Assembly: GCF_900215355.1 (NCBI RefSeq)
Contig: NZ_OBEA01000006.1
Span: forward strand, 1 to 64,000
Reading direction: 5' to 3'
Origin: Pseudooceanicola antarcticus
GTDB taxonomy: Bacteria > Pseudomonadota > Alphaproteobacteria > Rhodobacterales > Rhodobacteraceae
Length of the DNA stretch: 64,000 bases
Below, piece after piece: positions 17,513 through 25,000 of the stretch. The stretch's first letter is position 1; every line of letters starts with the position of its first letter. The notes under the pieces were generated by a model. That model did not search any database, was not told the DNA's origin, and saw only the letters and a program-made list of their open reading frames with translations. A program made the position numbers and the translations under genes.

Positions 17513-18172
17513 TTATGCGACCAGCGTCTTGCTCCAAGGTGAGTGCGACGGCATCCACTCGGAAACCTGATGACCCGTCAGCCCGCCATAGACCCGGAAC
17601 GTATCCCGCAGCTCCCTCAGCGCAGACCACCACAGCAGATACGCCCGCCGCGCCCGCGCCTCGTCGCGCGGATGGTTCTCGATAGTGATCGGGCACCAGC
17701 GCGCCTCGACCTCGCGGTCCTTGCCGCGGCTGCGATAACGCACCAGGCCGCAGCGTTCCGTCTCGGCGAAGCGCCCGTGCTTCGTTTCACGCCACCCACG
17801 GGGCCGCACACGTGGCGCGGCGCCAGCACCCCAGCCATGATGCTGCCCCGCCCGCGCCAGCTCGGCGATGGTCAGCGCCATGCGGCGCCCACCCACGCCC
17901 TCCGGCAGCTGCGCCAGCGCATCCGCCACGGCCTCGGCATCCGGGTGCGGATCCGAGCGTCCGCCGCCATCGACACGGCACCCTAGCTTGGCGCGCTCGA
18001 TCATCACCCACTCCATGCCGAAGCCCGGCAGCTGGCCCGGCATCGAGGCCCGCACCTGGTCGAACTCGATGGAGACCTTCTCGCGCTGGAAGGCCCATTC
18101 GATCAGCTCCAGGATCGAGACCTCCTTCACGCCGACCGGCTGCGCCGGCGTCATCCGCATCATCATGGTCAT
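17513..18172 (-). CDS. Phage early protein of unknown function
   Basis: 219 residues. A Met-rich start (MTMMMRMTPAQ) is followed by SILELIEWAFQREKVSIEFD, a basic central part (GWRETKHGRFAETERCGLV-RYRSRGK type) and a helical C-terminus (ARRAYLLWWSALRELRDTFR). Its ATG overlaps the upstream stop (ATGA). It is the last gene of the early leftward block. I recognise no domain; the basic region suggests nucleic-acid contact. Confidence 0.6.
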   Translation of the reverse strand: MTMMMRMTPAQPVGVKEVSILELIEWAFQREKVSIEFDQVRASMPGQLPGFGMEWVMIERAKLGCRVDGGGRSDPHPDAEAVADALAQLPEGVGGRRMALTIAELARAGQHHGWGAGAAPRVRPRGWRETKHGRFAETERCGLVRYRSRGKDREVEARWCPITIENHPRDEARARRAYLLWWSALRELRDTFRVYGGLTGHQVSEWMPSHSPWSKTLVA

Positions 18173-18765
18173 GCCGCGTTTCCCTTCTCCATGCCGAGCC
18201 GCACCAGCTCGCGCGCCGCGGCCTCATGCGCCTGCCAGGCCAGCAGCCATTCGCGGTCAACCGCATCGACCGGTAGGCCGAGCCCGAGCCGCTCCTTCAG
18301 CCGGGCCGCGCGCGACTGCCCTGCCCCGCCCCGATCCGCGACAATGCGGCGCTCCTGGGCGTTCAGCGGCGGGCGATGCTTGGCCAGCCACCAGCGGTAT
18401 TCCTCGACAAGCCGCCCCTCGGCCAGCGCATGCCGCCCCGCCTCGCTGCCGAACCAGGACGCAAGGCCTGGCATTTCCTCCAGCGGTCGGGGCTGGGCGA
18501 TCTGCGCCAAGGCGACGAAACCCGCATGGGTCGGCCAGAAGTCGCGGGCCTTGCCCTCGCCCTTGGTGCGCATCGCCTCGAAGAGCCGGCGCAGGTTCTC
18601 GTCGCTCATGTAGGCCAGGTCATCCGCCAGGCGGTCGAGCCGCTTGCGCGCTTCATCGGGATCGGTGCCGCGCTGGAACCGGAAACCGATGGCCTCCAGC
18701 GGCTCCAGCAGCACACGCCGCACCCGGTCGCGCTTGGTTTCGGAGCCCTCTCCCTCAGTCCGCAT
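18169..18765 (-). CDS. Phage early protein of unknown function, possible replication partner
   Basis: 198 residues from ATG 18765. Largely helical: VRRVLLEPLEAIGFRFQRG, DEARKRLDRLADDLAYMSDE, LRRLFEAMRTKGEGKARDFW, then a basic C-terminal part. It lies two genes after the replication initiator, where a helicase loader (lambda P position) would be expected, but no AAA or loader motif is visible. Function is not assigned. Confidence 0.6.
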   Translation of the reverse strand: MRTEGEGSETKRDRVRRVLLEPLEAIGFRFQRGTDPDEARKRLDRLADDLAYMSDENLRRLFEAMRTKGEGKARDFWPTHAGFVALAQIAQPRPLEEMPGLASWFGSEAGRHALAEGRLVEEYRWWLAKHRPPLNAQERRIVADRGGAGQSRAARLKERLGLGLPVDAVDREWLLAWQAHEAAARELVRLGMEKGNAA

Positions 18766-19069
18766 CGCTATCGCCCCGCTCGCTTTCCCGAGGCATTCCG
18801 TCTTCGGCCCCGCAATGCCGCATCGCCTGCAGCGTCTCCTCGACAAGCTGTTGCAGGCATTCCACGTCCGAGAAGGTCATCACGAAGTCCATCGTGCGCC
18901 CCTTGAAGCTGACACGCACGTCGGTGGTTCCGAAGCACTCACCGGTGCCATGCCACCCACTGCCCAGCATCCAGATGAAGCCGCACGGCGGCGCCAGAGG
19001 CAGATGATCAGGATCATCCGGCAATTGCCCGACGAAGGACACGGTTTGATTGGTCACGTGGCTGCTCAT
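18755..19069 (-). CDS. Small phage protein of unknown function
   Basis: 104 residues, with a beta-like middle (DVRVSFKGRTMDFVMTFSDV) followed by a helix (CLQQLVEETLQAMRHC) and an acidic tail. It starts 13 bases after the initiator stop and overlaps the next gene by 11 bases. The core looks like a small ligand- or protein-binding fold, but I do not recognise it. Confidence 0.55.
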   Translation of the reverse strand: MSSHVTNQTVSFVGQLPDDPDHLPLAPPCGFIWMLGSGWHGTGECFGTTDVRVSFKGRTMDFVMTFSDVECLQQLVEETLQAMRHCGAEDGMPRESERGDSDAD

Positions 19070-19082
19070 CGCAATTCCTTTC

Positions 19083-19751
19083 TCAGAAAAGTCCCGACCG
19101 CTGCCGCTCGTCCGGCGTCAGCAGTTCCGCGTTTCGGATGTGGTCCTGCACCCAGGGCTTGAGCTCTCGCAGCGCGTCCTGGCGGCCTTCCCGGAACACC
19201 CGGATTGCCCGTTCCGCCTCGGCCACTACGAGGGGATTTTTCGACCCCTCGCGCGCGGCGCGCGGGTTAATTACAGGTTCTTTACAGGTTACCTCTCCAG
19301 TGGGCTGGAGACGGCTCCCCGCTGAAATTGGAGACGGATCGGCCCTCAAATTGGAGACGGCTCCGTCTCCAGTTTCTGGAGACCGCTTGCCCTGTTTCCC
19401 GCCTCCAGTTCTTGGAGACGGCTTTGCACCTGCCCCGCCTCCAGATGCTGGAGACGGCTCCTTGGCCGCGCCCAGCTCGAAGCCCAGCACGTAGCGGGTC
19501 GGTTTCTGGCGCCGCGTCCGCCCGTCGCGTTCCTGGTGCCGGGCGATCAGGCCCTTGGCCTCCAGCCCGTTCAGCGCGTTGTTCAGCGTCCCGTTCGAGA
19601 TCCCGCAGCAGTCGATCAGGTAGGCCTGCGTCGGGAAGCACCCCTGCGAGGGGTTGTGACAATCGCAGAGGTGGAAGAGCACCCGGAATTCGCTGTTGGT
19701 CAGCGCCTTCGCCGGGATGCTCGACAACCAGTTGGTGGCCTTGTGGCTCAT
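19083..19751 (-). CDS. Phage replication initiator (lambda O-like organisation)
   Basis: 222 residues from ATG 19751. Residues 1-92 are a winged helix-turn-helix (ALTNSEFRVLFHLCDC, TQAYLIDCCGISNGTLNNAL, NGLEAKGLIARHQERDGRTR). Residues about 95-155 are a low-complexity Ser/Pro/Gly linker with repeated SP-x-(S/T)-G units. A helical C-terminus (NPLVVAEAERAIRVFREGRQ, ELKPWVQDHIRNAELL) follows. The DNA coding for the linker holds six iteron-like repeats, as in lambda O, so the protein probably binds the origin within its own gene and recruits a helicase or loader by the C-terminus. The early genes follow directly. Confidence 0.75.
   Translation of the reverse strand: MSHKATNWLSSIPAKALTNSEFRVLFHLCDCHNPSQGCFPTQAYLIDCCGISNGTLNNALNGLEAKGLIARHQERDGRTRRQKPTRYVLGFELGAAKEPSPASGGGAGAKPSPRTGGGKQGKRSPETGDGAVSNLRADPSPISAGSRLQPTGEVTCKEPVINPRAAREGSKNPLVVAEAERAIRVFREGRQDALRELKPWVQDHIRNAELLTPDERQRSGLF
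19265..19290. other. AT-rich element beside iterons (candidate unwinding region)
   Basis: An AT-rich island, unusual for this GC-rich phage, with two direct copies of TTACAGGTT (19271-19279 and 19282-19290) 11 bases apart. It abuts the iteron array on one side, as the AT-rich unwinding element does at lambda ori. Confidence 0.5.
19293..19461. repeat. Iteron array inside the initiator gene (candidate phage origin)
   Basis: Six copies of (C/T)TGGAGAC(G/C)G begin at 19305, 19328, 19351, 19376, 19412 and 19448, so spacings are 23, 23, 25, 36 and 36 bases. Four of them extend to dyads of the form CTCCAG-N3/4-CTGGAG (for example TCTCCAGTTTCTGGAGA at 19365-19381). They encode the Ser/Pro/Gly linker of the initiator. 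Confidence 0.75.
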
Positions 19752-21755: not shown

Positions 21756-21895
21756 GCGCGCTCAGCCTCGGGAGCTTGCCCTACCTCGCTGCAATTGCAA
21801 CGGGCTGGGCGCTAGCCACTGCCTCGCTGGTCTGGCTGGCAGGCGCCCCCTTCCATCCGACAACGCCGATCACCCTGCAGGAGACCGCGAAATGA
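21752..21895 (+). CDS. Very small membrane protein (47 residues)
   Basis: A 47-residue ORF linked by ATGA overlaps on both sides (21752-21755 and 21892-21895), strong evidence that it is translated. One membrane segment (LPYLAAIATGWALATASLVW, about residues 9-28) followed by a short polar tail. Function unknown; such miniproteins can tether or tune neighbours. Confidence 0.6.
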   Translation: MSALSLGSLPYLAAIATGWALATASLVWLAGAPFHPTTPITLQETAK

Positions 21896-23724
21896 CCGAC
21901 CTGTCGCAGACCATCCGCATGGTCCCGCTCGACCAGCTTTTCCTGCACCCTATGAACCCGCGCCAGCAGGTGCCCGACGAGGACATCGCCGCCATGGCGC
22001 AGTCGCTGGCCTCTGCCGGGCTGCTGCAGAACCTCTGCGGCATCGAGGAGGACGGCCGCATCGGCATCGTCGCCGGCGGCCGCCGCCTGCGCGGGCTCAA
22101 GCTGCTGGCTTCGCAGGGCTGGGAACCGCGCGGCCTCGCCGATCCCATCGACCCTGTGCCGGTGCAGATCACCCGTGATCCTGCCGAAGCCCGCGCCTGG
22201 GCGCTGGCCGAGAACGTCACCCATAGCGCGCTGCACCCAGCCGAAGAGATCCGCGCCTATGGCGAGCAGGCCACCCACGGGGTGCCGGTCGAGACCATCG
22301 CCCGCGCCTTCGGCAAGACCGAGCGCCACGTGCGCCAGCGCCTCAAGCTGGCCGGGCTCGCGGCCCCGGTGCTGGACCTGCTGGCCGCCGACAAGATCGG
22401 TCTCTCCGCCGCCGAGGCGCTCTGCCTCTCCGAGGACCCTGCCCGCCAGACCGCCATGGCCGAGACCGCCGCGGCGCGCGGCCTGAGCGCCGCACAGATC
22501 CGGGGCGAACTGAAGGGCGCTTCGATCCCCGCCAGCGACCGCCGCGCCATCTTCCTGGGGCTGGCCGAATACGAGGTCGAAGGCGGCACCGTCGCGCGTG
22601 ACCTCTTCACCGACGATGCCTTCCTTGAGGACGCCGCGCTGCTGGAAAGGCTCTGGTCTGCCAAGCTGGAACGCGAGGCGGCCCGGATCGGCGAGGAGGA
22701 AGGCTGGAGCTGGCTCGAGGTGAGCCAGGACAGCTACACACCGTGGAGCCTGATCGACAAGCTGGAGCGCCTCTGGCCCGAGCCGGTAGAGCTGCCCGAG
22801 GGCGATGCCGCGGAGCTGGACCGACTGCAGGCCCTCCACCCCGAAGAGCGCTCCGCAGCGCAGACCGCGCGAATGCAGGATCTGACCCGCCGCGCCGCAG
22901 GCGACTTCAGCGACGACCAACGCGAGAGCGGCGGGATCATCGCCTACGTCAATTCCGGCGGCGAGCTGACCATCGACCGCGCCTGGCGCAAGCCCGAGCG
23001 CAAGAGGGCCAAGGATGGCCAGAGCGAAGGCCCCGGTCGGGACAAGCCCGCCCTGCCCCAGAATGCCGTCGAGGATCTGCGCCGCATCGGCCATGCCGCC
23101 CTGCAGGTCGCGCTGATCGACCAGACCGAGCTGCTGCTCGATCTCTTCGCCTGGCAATGCGAAGCCCGCCTGCCAAGCTGGGGCGGCGCGCTCGGGATCT
23201 CCTTGGCCGAGCCGATGATCCGGCCCGACAAAGACAGCGGCTTCCACCATGACGCCCGCTTACCCGACCTCTCGCCCGACACCAGCGCGGCGCGCGACTG
23301 GGACGCCTTCACCGCCTTTCGCGCGAAGGGCAAGAAGCACCGCAATCAGGTCCTCGCGCGTTCACTCGCCCGCACGGCCAACGGCCCGAGCAACGGCCCG
23401 CTGGCCGAGATCCTGGCGCAGCACGTCGATGCGCAGCGCATGGTCCGCAAGATCTGGACGCCCGACGCGGCGAACTACTTCGGCCGCGTCCGCCCCGACC
23501 TGCAGGTGGCGATCTGGGAAGAGCTGACCGGCGCCGAGGGCGACGAGCTCAAGCGCTTCACCGACCTGAAGAAAGGCGAGCGCGCCAAGGAGCTGGAGGC
23601 GCTCTTCGCAGACGCCAGCGTCCAGGAGGCCCTCGGCCTCTCGCGCGAGCAGGTGAAGGCTATCGACGCCTGGTTGCCGGCAGAGCTGCGCGGCACTCCT
23701 ATGCCGACCACGCAGGAGGCCTAG
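21892..23724 (+). CDS. ParB/Spo0J-like nuclease-domain protein
   Basis: 610 residues. Residues 10-110 form a ParB N-terminal (CTPase/nuclease-like) domain with IVAGGRRLRGLK (the GxRRxxA box, about 59-70) and ENVTHSALHPAEEIRAY, followed by a helix-turn-helix (IARAFGKTERHVRQRLKLAG). The long C-terminal half (about 230-610) is unrelated to chromosomal ParB and acidic. No ParA gene is beside it. In phages and mobile elements such proteins may bind or cut DNA, or counter host systems; partition is only one possibility. It is coupled by ATGA to the small membrane protein. Confidence 0.8.
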   Translation: MTDLSQTIRMVPLDQLFLHPMNPRQQVPDEDIAAMAQSLASAGLLQNLCGIEEDGRIGIVAGGRRLRGLKLLASQGWEPRGLADPIDPVPVQITRDPAEARAWALAENVTHSALHPAEEIRAYGEQATHGVPVETIARAFGKTERHVRQRLKLAGLAAPVLDLLAADKIGLSAAEALCLSEDPARQTAMAETAAARGLSAAQIRGELKGASIPASDRRAIFLGLAEYEVEGGTVARDLFTDDAFLEDAALLERLWSAKLEREAARIGEEEGWSWLEVSQDSYTPWSLIDKLERLWPEPVELPEGDAAELDRLQALHPEERSAAQTARMQDLTRRAAGDFSDDQRESGGIIAYVNSGGELTIDRAWRKPERKRAKDGQSEGPGRDKPALPQNAVEDLRRIGHAALQVALIDQTELLLDLFAWQCEARLPSWGGALGISLAEPMIRPDKDSGFHHDARLPDLSPDTSAARDWDAFTAFRAKGKKHRNQVLARSLARTANGPSNGPLAEILAQHVDAQRMVRKIWTPDAANYFGRVRPDLQVAIWEELTGAEGDELKRFTDLKKGERAKELEALFADASVQEALGLSREQVKAIDAWLPAELRGTPMPTTQEA

Positions 23725-23726
23725 AT

Positions 23727-23921
23727 ATGGCGCGCGCGAAACCCTCAGCCGCTGCGGTCAGAAATGTCCTCGACGCGATGATCGCGCGCGGCCTGCAACC
23801 CGGCTCGGTCCAGGTCGCCGCCGATGGCAGCTTCTCGGTCGAGACCCTGAAACCGCGTGACCGGCCGGCGCCGGTCGCGCAGGGAGAGCCCCGGAAATTC
23901 GGCCAGGCACGGGCTGACTGA
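23727..23921 (+). CDS. Small integrase-linked protein
   Basis: 64 residues: helix AAAVRNVLDAMIARGLQPGS, a strand pair VQVAADGSFSVETLKP, then a basic disordered tail. It starts two bases after the ParB-like stop and its stop overlaps the integrase start as TGATG. Small genes of this pattern often sit before Rhodobacterales phage integrases. An excisionase-like role is conceivable but there is no clear winged-helix motif. Confidence 0.6.
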   Translation: MARAKPSAAAVRNVLDAMIARGLQPGSVQVAADGSFSVETLKPRDRPAPVAQGEPRKFGQARAD

Positions 23922-25000
23922 TGAAGGTGAAGTTTCCCGGCTATGTGCCGGAAAAGTTGCGGTCGGGCGAGATACGGCACCGTGTCCGCGTCGAGGGTAA
24001 CCCGAAGAAGCGTATCCGCATCCCGGTCGGCCCCGACGACCCCACCTTCACCGAGCACTACTACGCCGCCCGTGCCGGCCAGGTCGTGGAAACAGAGCCG
24101 CTCAAGCCGGTGGTGCGCCACTCTCTCGACGAACTGGTGCGCGACTACCTGATCTGGCTGGAAGCGCAGGTGCAGGCAGGCAACGCCTCCCCCATGACCC
24201 TCAAGCAGCGCCGTAGCCTCTTTGGCAAGGTCTGCGAGATGAAGGACCCCGAAGGTGAGCGCATGGGCGACCTGCACCATGACCTGCCCCCGGCCGGCAT
24301 CCACCACATCATCGACCAGTGGGGCGAGGCCACCGCCCAGGCAGACAACTCCCGCAAGGCGCTCAGTGCCGCATACAGGTGGGCAATCACGCGCGGCCGC
24401 GCGACACGCAACCCCTGCACCGGCATCGCGCGCGTACACCGCAGCCGTGGCGGCGCCGTGCCCTGGAGCACCAGCGACGTACGCGCCTTCCTAGATGCCC
24501 ACCCAGAAGGGACCACCGCCCGCCGCTGGCTCTTCCTGGCCATGTTCACGGCTTGCCGGATCTCCGATGTCCGCATCCTTGGTCGGCAGCACGAGGTGAT
24601 CCGCGATGGCGTGGTGTTCCTGGACTGGCAGCCGCAGAAGAAGGGCTCAGCATTCGTCTCCGTCCCTATCGCGCCCCAGCTTCTGACCGAGCTGCGCGCA
24701 ACCGAGGACGAAGGTGCGACCTATATCCTGAGCGAACACGGCCGGCCCTACCGCTCGACCGCGGCACTGCACCAGCGCATCCGTAGGTGGGTTGATACGG
24801 CTGGCCTGGAGAACAGAAGCCAGCACGGGCTGCGCAAGGCCATGGGCGAGATCCTGGCCGAGGCCGGCGCCACGCAACACCAGATCATGGCGGTGATGGC
24901 GCACACGCAGCCAGCGACTTCGGCGATCTATACGCACCGCGCGGACCGGCGCCGAATGGCTGCTGCAGCCATGCAGGCGATCAAAGGGTTCTCTCTTTAA
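23921..25000 (+). CDS. int: Tyrosine recombinase integrase
   Basis: 359 residues. N-terminal arm-binding part, a core-binding domain (about 65-170, SLDELVRDYLIWLEAQVQAG), and a catalytic domain with Arg213 (TACRISDV), a Lys in the beta-hairpin (QPQKKGS, about 240), His302-x-x-Arg305 (SQHGLRK), His328 (AHTQPATS) and the nucleophile Tyr337 (AIYTH). It performs site-specific integration and excision. It is the last gene of the rightward operon, so its expression is tied to that operon's promoter. Confidence 0.95.
   Translation: MKVKFPGYVPEKLRSGEIRHRVRVEGNPKKRIRIPVGPDDPTFTEHYYAARAGQVVETEPLKPVVRHSLDELVRDYLIWLEAQVQAGNASPMTLKQRRSLFGKVCEMKDPEGERMGDLHHDLPPAGIHHIIDQWGEATAQADNSRKALSAAYRWAITRGRATRNPCTGIARVHRSRGGAVPWSTSDVRAFLDAHPEGTTARRWLFLAMFTACRISDVRILGRQHEVIRDGVVFLDWQPQKKGSAFVSVPIAPQLLTELRATEDEGATYILSEHGRPYRSTAALHQRIRRWVDTAGLENRSQHGLRKAMGEILAEAGATQHQIMAVMAHTQPATSAIYTHRADRRRMAAAAMQAIKGFSL

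Follow-up and report, generated by a model that had tools for sequence, protein, structure and literature searches.

A predicted temperate-phage replication origin within the coding DNA of its own initiator, and covariation of the initiator with the origin repeats

Introduction

Replication origins located inside the gene of their own initiator are already known from phages lambda and phi80, from RepA_N plasmids and from pPR9. In lambda, four iterons spaced 20, 24 and 23 nt lie within gene O, an A-rich stretch adjoins them on the C-terminal side, and gene P follows O. Gene 15 of phi80 contains four annotated gp15 binding sites, 20, 21 and 21 nt apart, and gp15 is a relative of lambda O (37% identical over 99%). 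In a study of Stx phages, iterons were altered without change to the O protein (PMC7466680, available text).

In staphylococcal plasmids of the RepA_N type, such as pSK41, the Rep boxes lie within rep, in DNA coding for the linker of a protein with a winged-helix N-terminal domain, and the C-terminal domain of pSK41 Rep binds DnaG primase (PMC5703833, in the portion available). According to the same portion, the N-terminal domain of pPR9 Rep is phage-like and of family PF13730, replacing the RepA_N domain together with the origin, and the pPR9 mini-replicon is functional; by this description it is the nearest functional precedent for the locus studied here. Two further in-gene origins come from alphaproteobacteria. 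For gene 4 of Bartonella run-off replication, which is phage-derived and lies upstream of a helicase gene, a lambda-like in-gene origin was proposed from palindromes and a GC dip (PMC3610622, accessible part). In repC of repABC plasmids, oriV lies inside the gene, and silent changes to an A+T-rich stretch caused its loss (PMC3155836, accessible part).

The stretch of Pseudooceanicola antarcticus DNA analysed here, 64,000 nt in length, is referred to as the window. No description of an origin or of a recognition code in the family of the window initiator was found in the literature searched, and the terms 'iteron' and 'origin of replication' were absent from the main texts, as available, of the Rhodobacter and alphaproteobacterial phage papers PMC8601537 and PMC10783043.

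Results

Initiator gene and protein

The gene and its domains were assigned as follows.

19083-19751, minus strand: initiator gene P0001, 222 aa (open reading frame with Pfam and PHROG matches)
19476-19751, minus strand: N-terminal winged-helix domain, residues 1-92 (AlphaFold2 model and the 37-member alignment A1)
19557-19595, minus strand: predicted recognition helix, residues 53-65 (AlphaFold2 model and covariation)
19593-19595 and 19578-19580, minus strand: covarying positions on the recognition helix, residue 53 (Asn) and residue 58 (Asn)
19095-19235, minus strand: C-terminal helical domain, residues 173-219 (pLDDT)

P0001 was matched by the Pfam family PF13730 (HTH_36) at 6.9e-10, with 39 bits against a curated cut-off of 25, and by phrog_270, labelled 'replication initiation protein', at 7.5e-14. 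Further PHROG matches were phrog_391, phrog_345 and phrog_678, all labelled 'replication initiation O-like', and PF13730 matched all 37 members of A1 at E up to 1. The AlphaFold2 model of P0001 showed a confident winged helix at residues 1-90 (ten-residue mean pLDDT 90-98) and a confident helical domain at residues 171-220 (means 94-97). Between them, the means at residues 91-170 were 41-64, with segments below 50 at 97-136 and 143-156. The repeats and AT-rich units described below correspond to about residues 98 to 162, within this low-confidence stretch, which is rich in Gly, Ser and Pro. The claim of the initial annotation that the repeats encode a flexible linker between the winged helix and the C-terminal domain was supported by the predicted disorder. 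As the repeats would encode no more than a flexible linker, one set of bases can serve DNA and protein alike.

The fold search with P0001 returned many kinds of winged-helix proteins (best Z 9.7), including entries named 'Structure of initiator' (Z 8.7) and 'Structure of Rep-DNA complex' (Z 8.6), and a putative replication protein O ranked twelfth among the viral models. The entries 4pql, 4pt7 and 5kbj, which we take to be RepA_N-type proteins, were also close folds (Z 8.6-8.9); PF06970, the RepA_N family, was not one of the 12 that Pfam listed for P0001 with E up to 1. The RP-C family PF03428 reached 12.1 bits with the window domain, below its cut-off of 24.4, and matched 24 of the 37 A1 members at E up to 1 (best 2.9e-5).

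The plan had been described as that of lambda O/ori with a different protein and different repeats, and both parts of this description held against the annotation and sequence of lambda. In both, iterons inside the gene are followed on its C-terminal side by an AT-rich stretch. The window differs in having six repeats spaced 36, 36, 25, 23 and 23 nt with another core, and AACCNGTAA units in place of the A-rich stretch of lambda. Lambda O belongs to Phage_rep_O (PF04492), whereas P0001 belongs to HTH_36; P0001 gave no match to PF04492 at E up to 1 or to TIGR01610 at E up to 0.01, while lambda O matched both. At the same time, phrog_345 and phrog_678 matched both the N-terminal part of lambda O and the family of the window initiator. 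In profile comparison by hhalign, A1 reached a probability of 79.5% and an E of 1.5e-5 (for a single pair) against eight O-type domains, and 0.6% against lambda O alone, so that the relation was visible only with the eight domains together. On the initial question of deep ancestry or convergence, these results suggested, on the level of sequence profiles, that lambda O and the window family share a winged-helix ancestor; as winged helices are widespread, this is kept as a suggestion.

Phi80 gp15 is like the window in its in-gene binding sites and unlike it in its kinship to lambda O and in their spacing. The Bartonella gene 4 resembles the window gene, by description, in being alphaproteobacterial and phage-derived, and differs in that its region was present in all Bartonella genomes examined there, in contrast to mobile prophages (PMC3610622, same part). 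The repC gene is likewise alphaproteobacterial and, unlike the window gene, has no iterons in the part of PMC3155836 available.

Repeat array and AT-rich element

The array and its flank comprise the features below; iterons are numbered in gene order.

19290-19459, inside the initiator gene: whole array of six ordered repeats, of which four have a second half-site
19435-19457, minus strand: iteron 1, full dyad
19399-19421, minus strand: iteron 2, full dyad
19363-19385, minus strand: iteron 3, full dyad
19351-19360, minus strand: iteron 4, mainly a half-site
19328-19337, minus strand: iteron 5, mainly a half-site
19290-19314, minus strand: iteron 6, dyad with a 4-nt centre, adjoining the AT-rich element
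19265-19291, minus strand: AT-rich element, probable unwinding element, with a pair of 11-nt units (in gene direction AACCTGTAA) and a counterpart in relatives
19249-19264, no strand assigned: GC-rich near-palindrome, in gene direction beyond the AT-rich element, from the sequence

On the plus strand, direct repeats start at 19305, 19328, 19351, 19376, 19412 and 19448, spaced 23, 23, 25, 36 and 36 nt; in gene direction they read as six copies of CCGTCTCCA/G (one with CGGTCTCCA). Six repeats with one core at ordered spacing had been reported initially. The spacing was confirmed, but the exact core occurred in only five of the six on the plus strand: the copy at 19376 reads TGGAGACCG, and an inverted copy at 19363-19371 supplies the sixth exact core. 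Dyad symmetry in most of the repeats was found as claimed, with a second half-site in four, the copies at 19328 and 19351 being mainly half-sites. The AT-rich element was likewise present, as TTACAGGTT at 19271-19279 and 19282-19290, 11 nt apart.

The core TGGAGACGG was found six times in the window, all within 19306-19457, against 0.82 expected, and six copies were reached in none of 100 shuffles. The repeats were also compared with 200 permutations of the synonymous codons of the gene. Six exact copies of CCGTCTCCA stood against a permutation mean of 2.0 and a largest value of 4. The best 12-mer gave 5 copies with at most one mismatch (permutation largest 3) and 9 with at most two (largest 7); the best 10-mer with at most one mismatch gave 9 against a largest of 8, a thin margin in this one of four word settings. 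The repeat starts modulo 3 were 0, 2, 1, 2, 2 and 2. As all three reading frames are used, the repeats are a feature of the DNA, and the same DNA words encode different peptides. Genome-wide, the 10-mer CTGGAGACGG was not enriched (17 copies versus 74 for the reversed pattern). The TTACAGGTT pair alone was not beyond chance in the window (three with one mismatch versus 1.41 expected; 13 of 100 shuffles reached three); its equivalent recurred in relatives.

Array and flank in relatives

Viral and genome contigs and whole genomes were scanned for relatives. The first set comprised 147 distinct N-terminal domains including that of the window, of which 143 had enough sequence (four genes below 430 nt were dropped). 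Each gene was searched for three similar 11-mers at 22-24-nt spacing and compared with 100 synonymous permutations, a geometry test against which pure word counting was weaker. The array exceeded all 100 permutations in 122 of the 143 domains, the window included, and did not do so in 21. The best spacing was 23-23 in 148 of 187 genes, and the in-register triplets occupied all three frames in 108 of 119. A copy preceding the triplet was found in 109 cases, 25 nt upstream in 54 and 37 nt upstream in 44. A protein linker kept in relatives with the DNA repeats lost had been named initially as one outcome against an origin; the opposite was obtained, with the copies placed in all three frames.

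After the last repeat copy, mean AT content in relatives rose to 0.57 and 0.56 in two 20-nt bins, most other bins being at 0.30-0.45, and a low-AT bin lay at the same distance as the GC-rich near-palindrome of the window. The pattern AACCN(N)TAA, of the AACCNGTAA type, was picked after inspection of the relatives; with it, at least two units after the array were counted in 132 of 183 genes, one in 32 and none in 19, a mean of 1.75 per gene versus 0.08 in permutations. The units were 12 nt apart in 142 pairs and 11 nt apart in 10, the window being an 11-nt case.

Several variants of the gene were observed. The N-terminal domain of the initiator also occurred as a truncated copy of 109 aa, at L067 (1175-1504) and at L203 (a 330-nt gene from 2675). 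At L067 there is a 4-nt overlap between this copy and the start of a complete initiator gene. The single repeat pair of the truncated copy was not beyond chance, and the copy is possibly a regulator or a remnant. Initiators of 213-215 aa at L052-L061 have a related N-terminal domain with an SRGSVIKH helix; in this group, represented by L055, L057 and L060, no array exceeded the permutations and none of the three class cores of the geometry-free test below was present. In the far relatives L341, L342, L348 and L353, three similar 11-mers of quite different sequence were found at 22-24-nt spacing. By this geometry alone, in-gene origins may reach beyond the family of the window initiator.

Recognition helix and repeat sequence

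Coevolving repeats in relatives had been put forward as a check, and when it was run, the recognition helix and the repeats covaried with no exception among in-register arrays. The rule was that Arg at residue 53 accompanies G at base 5 of the half-site and any other residue C, while Arg at residue 58 accompanies T at base 8 and any other residue C. It was read from the first set, which contains the window's own gene, after 5 of 124 arrays that were out of register had been set aside. In the 119 in register, Arg-53 occurred with G in 77/77 and non-Arg with C in 42/42; Arg-58 occurred with T in 18/18 and non-Arg with C in 101/101. In every relative, the register template leaves base 5 a choice of C or G and base 8 a choice of C or T; this restricts other bases but does not favour the rule.

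A second set of 75 further distinct domains was looked at after the rule was fixed. Arrays were present in 61 of them and 14 had no geometry hit; of the arrays, 24 were out of register and 37 in register, and all 37 satisfied both parts of the rule. Thirty-six of these 37 were fetched after the rule was recorded, and the remaining one, L367, had been fetched earlier and left unread till then. Sixteen of them were below 85% identical to any first-set domain, the remainder being close relatives. At 70% identity, all 156 in-register domains formed 34 clusters, with zero exceptions. In a geometry-free test covering all 218 domains, the class A, B and C cores of each linker were counted on both strands, giving 175 right, 0 wrong, 2 ties and 41 undecided. 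A fourth helix type (e.g. DERSVRR), with ACCGGACA repeats in most, made up 23 of the undecided.

The fourth helix type was seen in L095, L238 and L245 and in 20 later-fetched domains (in the range L450-L471, and L481). Its repeat ACCGGACA reads TGTCCGGT on the other strand and so resembles an inverted half-site of the Arg-53 class. In the linkers of L035, L039 and L043 the two half-sites look unlike, one being GACTCC and the other, on the opposite strand, GTGTCC; the two ties were L035 and L039.

On the best tree, residue 53 changed five times and residue 58 six times, always in agreement with the rule. Well-supported branches left two independent pairs for residue 53 and one for residue 58, too few for a sign test on independent pairs to reach 0.05. 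The covariation between initiator and origin is unusually clean, and the secure independent evolutionary events behind it are few.

Downstream genes and a second element

The neighbourhood of the initiator contains the following genes.

18755-19069, minus strand: 104-aa open reading frame between the initiator and P0002
18169-18765, minus strand: P0002 (198 aa), putative partner of helicase-loader type for the initiator (gene pairing and structural match)
23921-25000, plus strand: phage integrase (PF00589 at 2.6e-14; phrog_1 at 4.8e-34)

The integrase gene suggests that the element is a prophage. A 610-aa ParB-like protein, whose best match is the function-unknown family phrog_7783, is encoded at 21892-23724 on the plus strand. 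The 104-aa reading frame had no Pfam match at E up to 1 and only two PHROG matches, at E 0.14 and 0.4. In NCBIfam, no family exceeded its cut-off for either P0001 or P0002.

Of the 39 initiators shorter than 240 aa, 24 had a relative of P0002 at most 900 nt downstream, versus 1 of the 171 longer ones; eight genes were left out of this count. All 137 initiators of at least 300 aa were without a P0002-like gene downstream. The P0002 model had a mean pLDDT of 87.7. In the fold search, lambda P headed the 151 aligned chains (75 residues at Z 6.7 and rmsd 2.8), a match below the trust level of the tool, for which Z below 8 may be a common arrangement; AAA-protein domains followed from Z 5.9, a difference of less than 1 and a tie by the rule of the tool. 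Profile comparison gave no sequence relation of P0002 to lambda P, and a Foldseek search of the model against BFVD returned 0 matches at E up to 0.001. From the gene pairing and this one middling structural match, a role of P0002 as helicase loader is plausible.

Longer initiators (e.g. L107, 3496-3876) carry an extra conserved domain, A8, with a PGWWQG motif, between the AT-rich units and the C-terminal end. Sequence tests found no relation of A8 to the P0002 family or to lambda O.

A related replication module was found in a second element of the same genome (L367 3227-3997, G000:C2). Its counterpart of P0002 was 76% identical and the next gene 63%, as opposed to 34% for the initiator over residues 1-152. 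The L367 initiator has Arg at residue 53 and 11 class B cores, with no class A or C core; the window repeats are class A. Given the conserved partner beside a divergent initiator and array, the domain and its array seem to be exchanged as a unit.

Discussion

A replication origin inside the initiator gene, as proposed by the initial annotation, was well supported in silico by the PHROG matches, by the recurrence of arrays, their geometry and AT-rich units, by the linker and by the covariation. We consider it highly likely that this stretch is the theta origin of a temperate phage, located within the coding DNA of its own initiator and working in the manner of lambda O/ori. As an in-gene phage origin it is very probably functional. 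Winged-helix dimers of the initiator would read the inverted half-sites of each repeat, and residues 53 and 58 of the recognition helix would choose half-site bases 5 and 8. The bound array would then strain the adjoining AT-rich AACCNGTAA repeats and lead to their opening. The C-terminal helical domain, proposed here as a putative contact site for a partner protein, would recruit that partner, probably the product of 18169-18765, which would deliver the host replicative helicase and thereby start theta replication.

The repeats might instead be operators, and the helix-turn-helix protein a transcription factor of its own operon and no initiator. The winged-helix domain does resemble MarR/SlyA-type regulators in sequence and fold, 14 of the 16 phage records with a relative say helix-turn-helix protein or putative transcriptional regulator, and the covariation indicates specific binding and is silent on its outcome. 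However, the first array copy lies at a median of nt 297 of the gene (119 genes), well inside it and away from the gene start, the window has no exact core copies outside the array, and AT-rich tandem units come after the array. The PHROG labels are those of replication initiation, for which pPR9 provides a PF13730 precedent (PMC5703833, available portion). On balance, an operator role is very improbable.

The sites could also serve only the control of the initiator, through copy number or incompatibility, with the true origin elsewhere in the prophage, and we regard this as very improbable. Iterons in plasmids titrate initiators. Lambda is blocked by extra copies of the lambda origin (PMC4488673, accessible portion), and GC skew as an origin marker showed no switch at 19.3 kb, with negative values throughout the 2-kb bins between 1 and 29 kb. 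Against this, recurring AT-rich tandem units lie next to the repeats, in the order seen in lambda ori, and the window holds no second cluster of exact cores. That the DNA repeats only reflect repeated peptides of a low-complexity linker, as its Gly, Ser and Pro content and the narrowly passed word test might hint, is next to negligible, since copies in all three frames largely refute it, 23 nt is no multiple of a codon, and synonymous permutations failed to reproduce the arrays in the 122 domains named above.

Under the preferred reading, the gene is initiator plus origin at once, and it would mark the predicted start of replication for many phages and prophages from Rhodobacterales and related bacteria; the nearest named relatives of the window initiator were from Rhodobacterales. 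A sequence search with lambda O gave no solved structure, so the contacts proposed here may serve beyond the family of the window initiator. A joint change of specificity by initiator and origin can be tested directly in this family, since it requires several repeats to change along with two residues and natural variants of at least three classes exist. Probably, residues 53 and 58 set bases 5 and 8 of the repeats as a readable code, and the N-terminal domain with its array moves as an exchangeable specificity module, with the effect that the origins of elements with a shared downstream partner in one cell would not cross-react. The window element (class A repeats) and L367 (class B) would then be a natural case of non-cross-reacting origins beside a shared partner.
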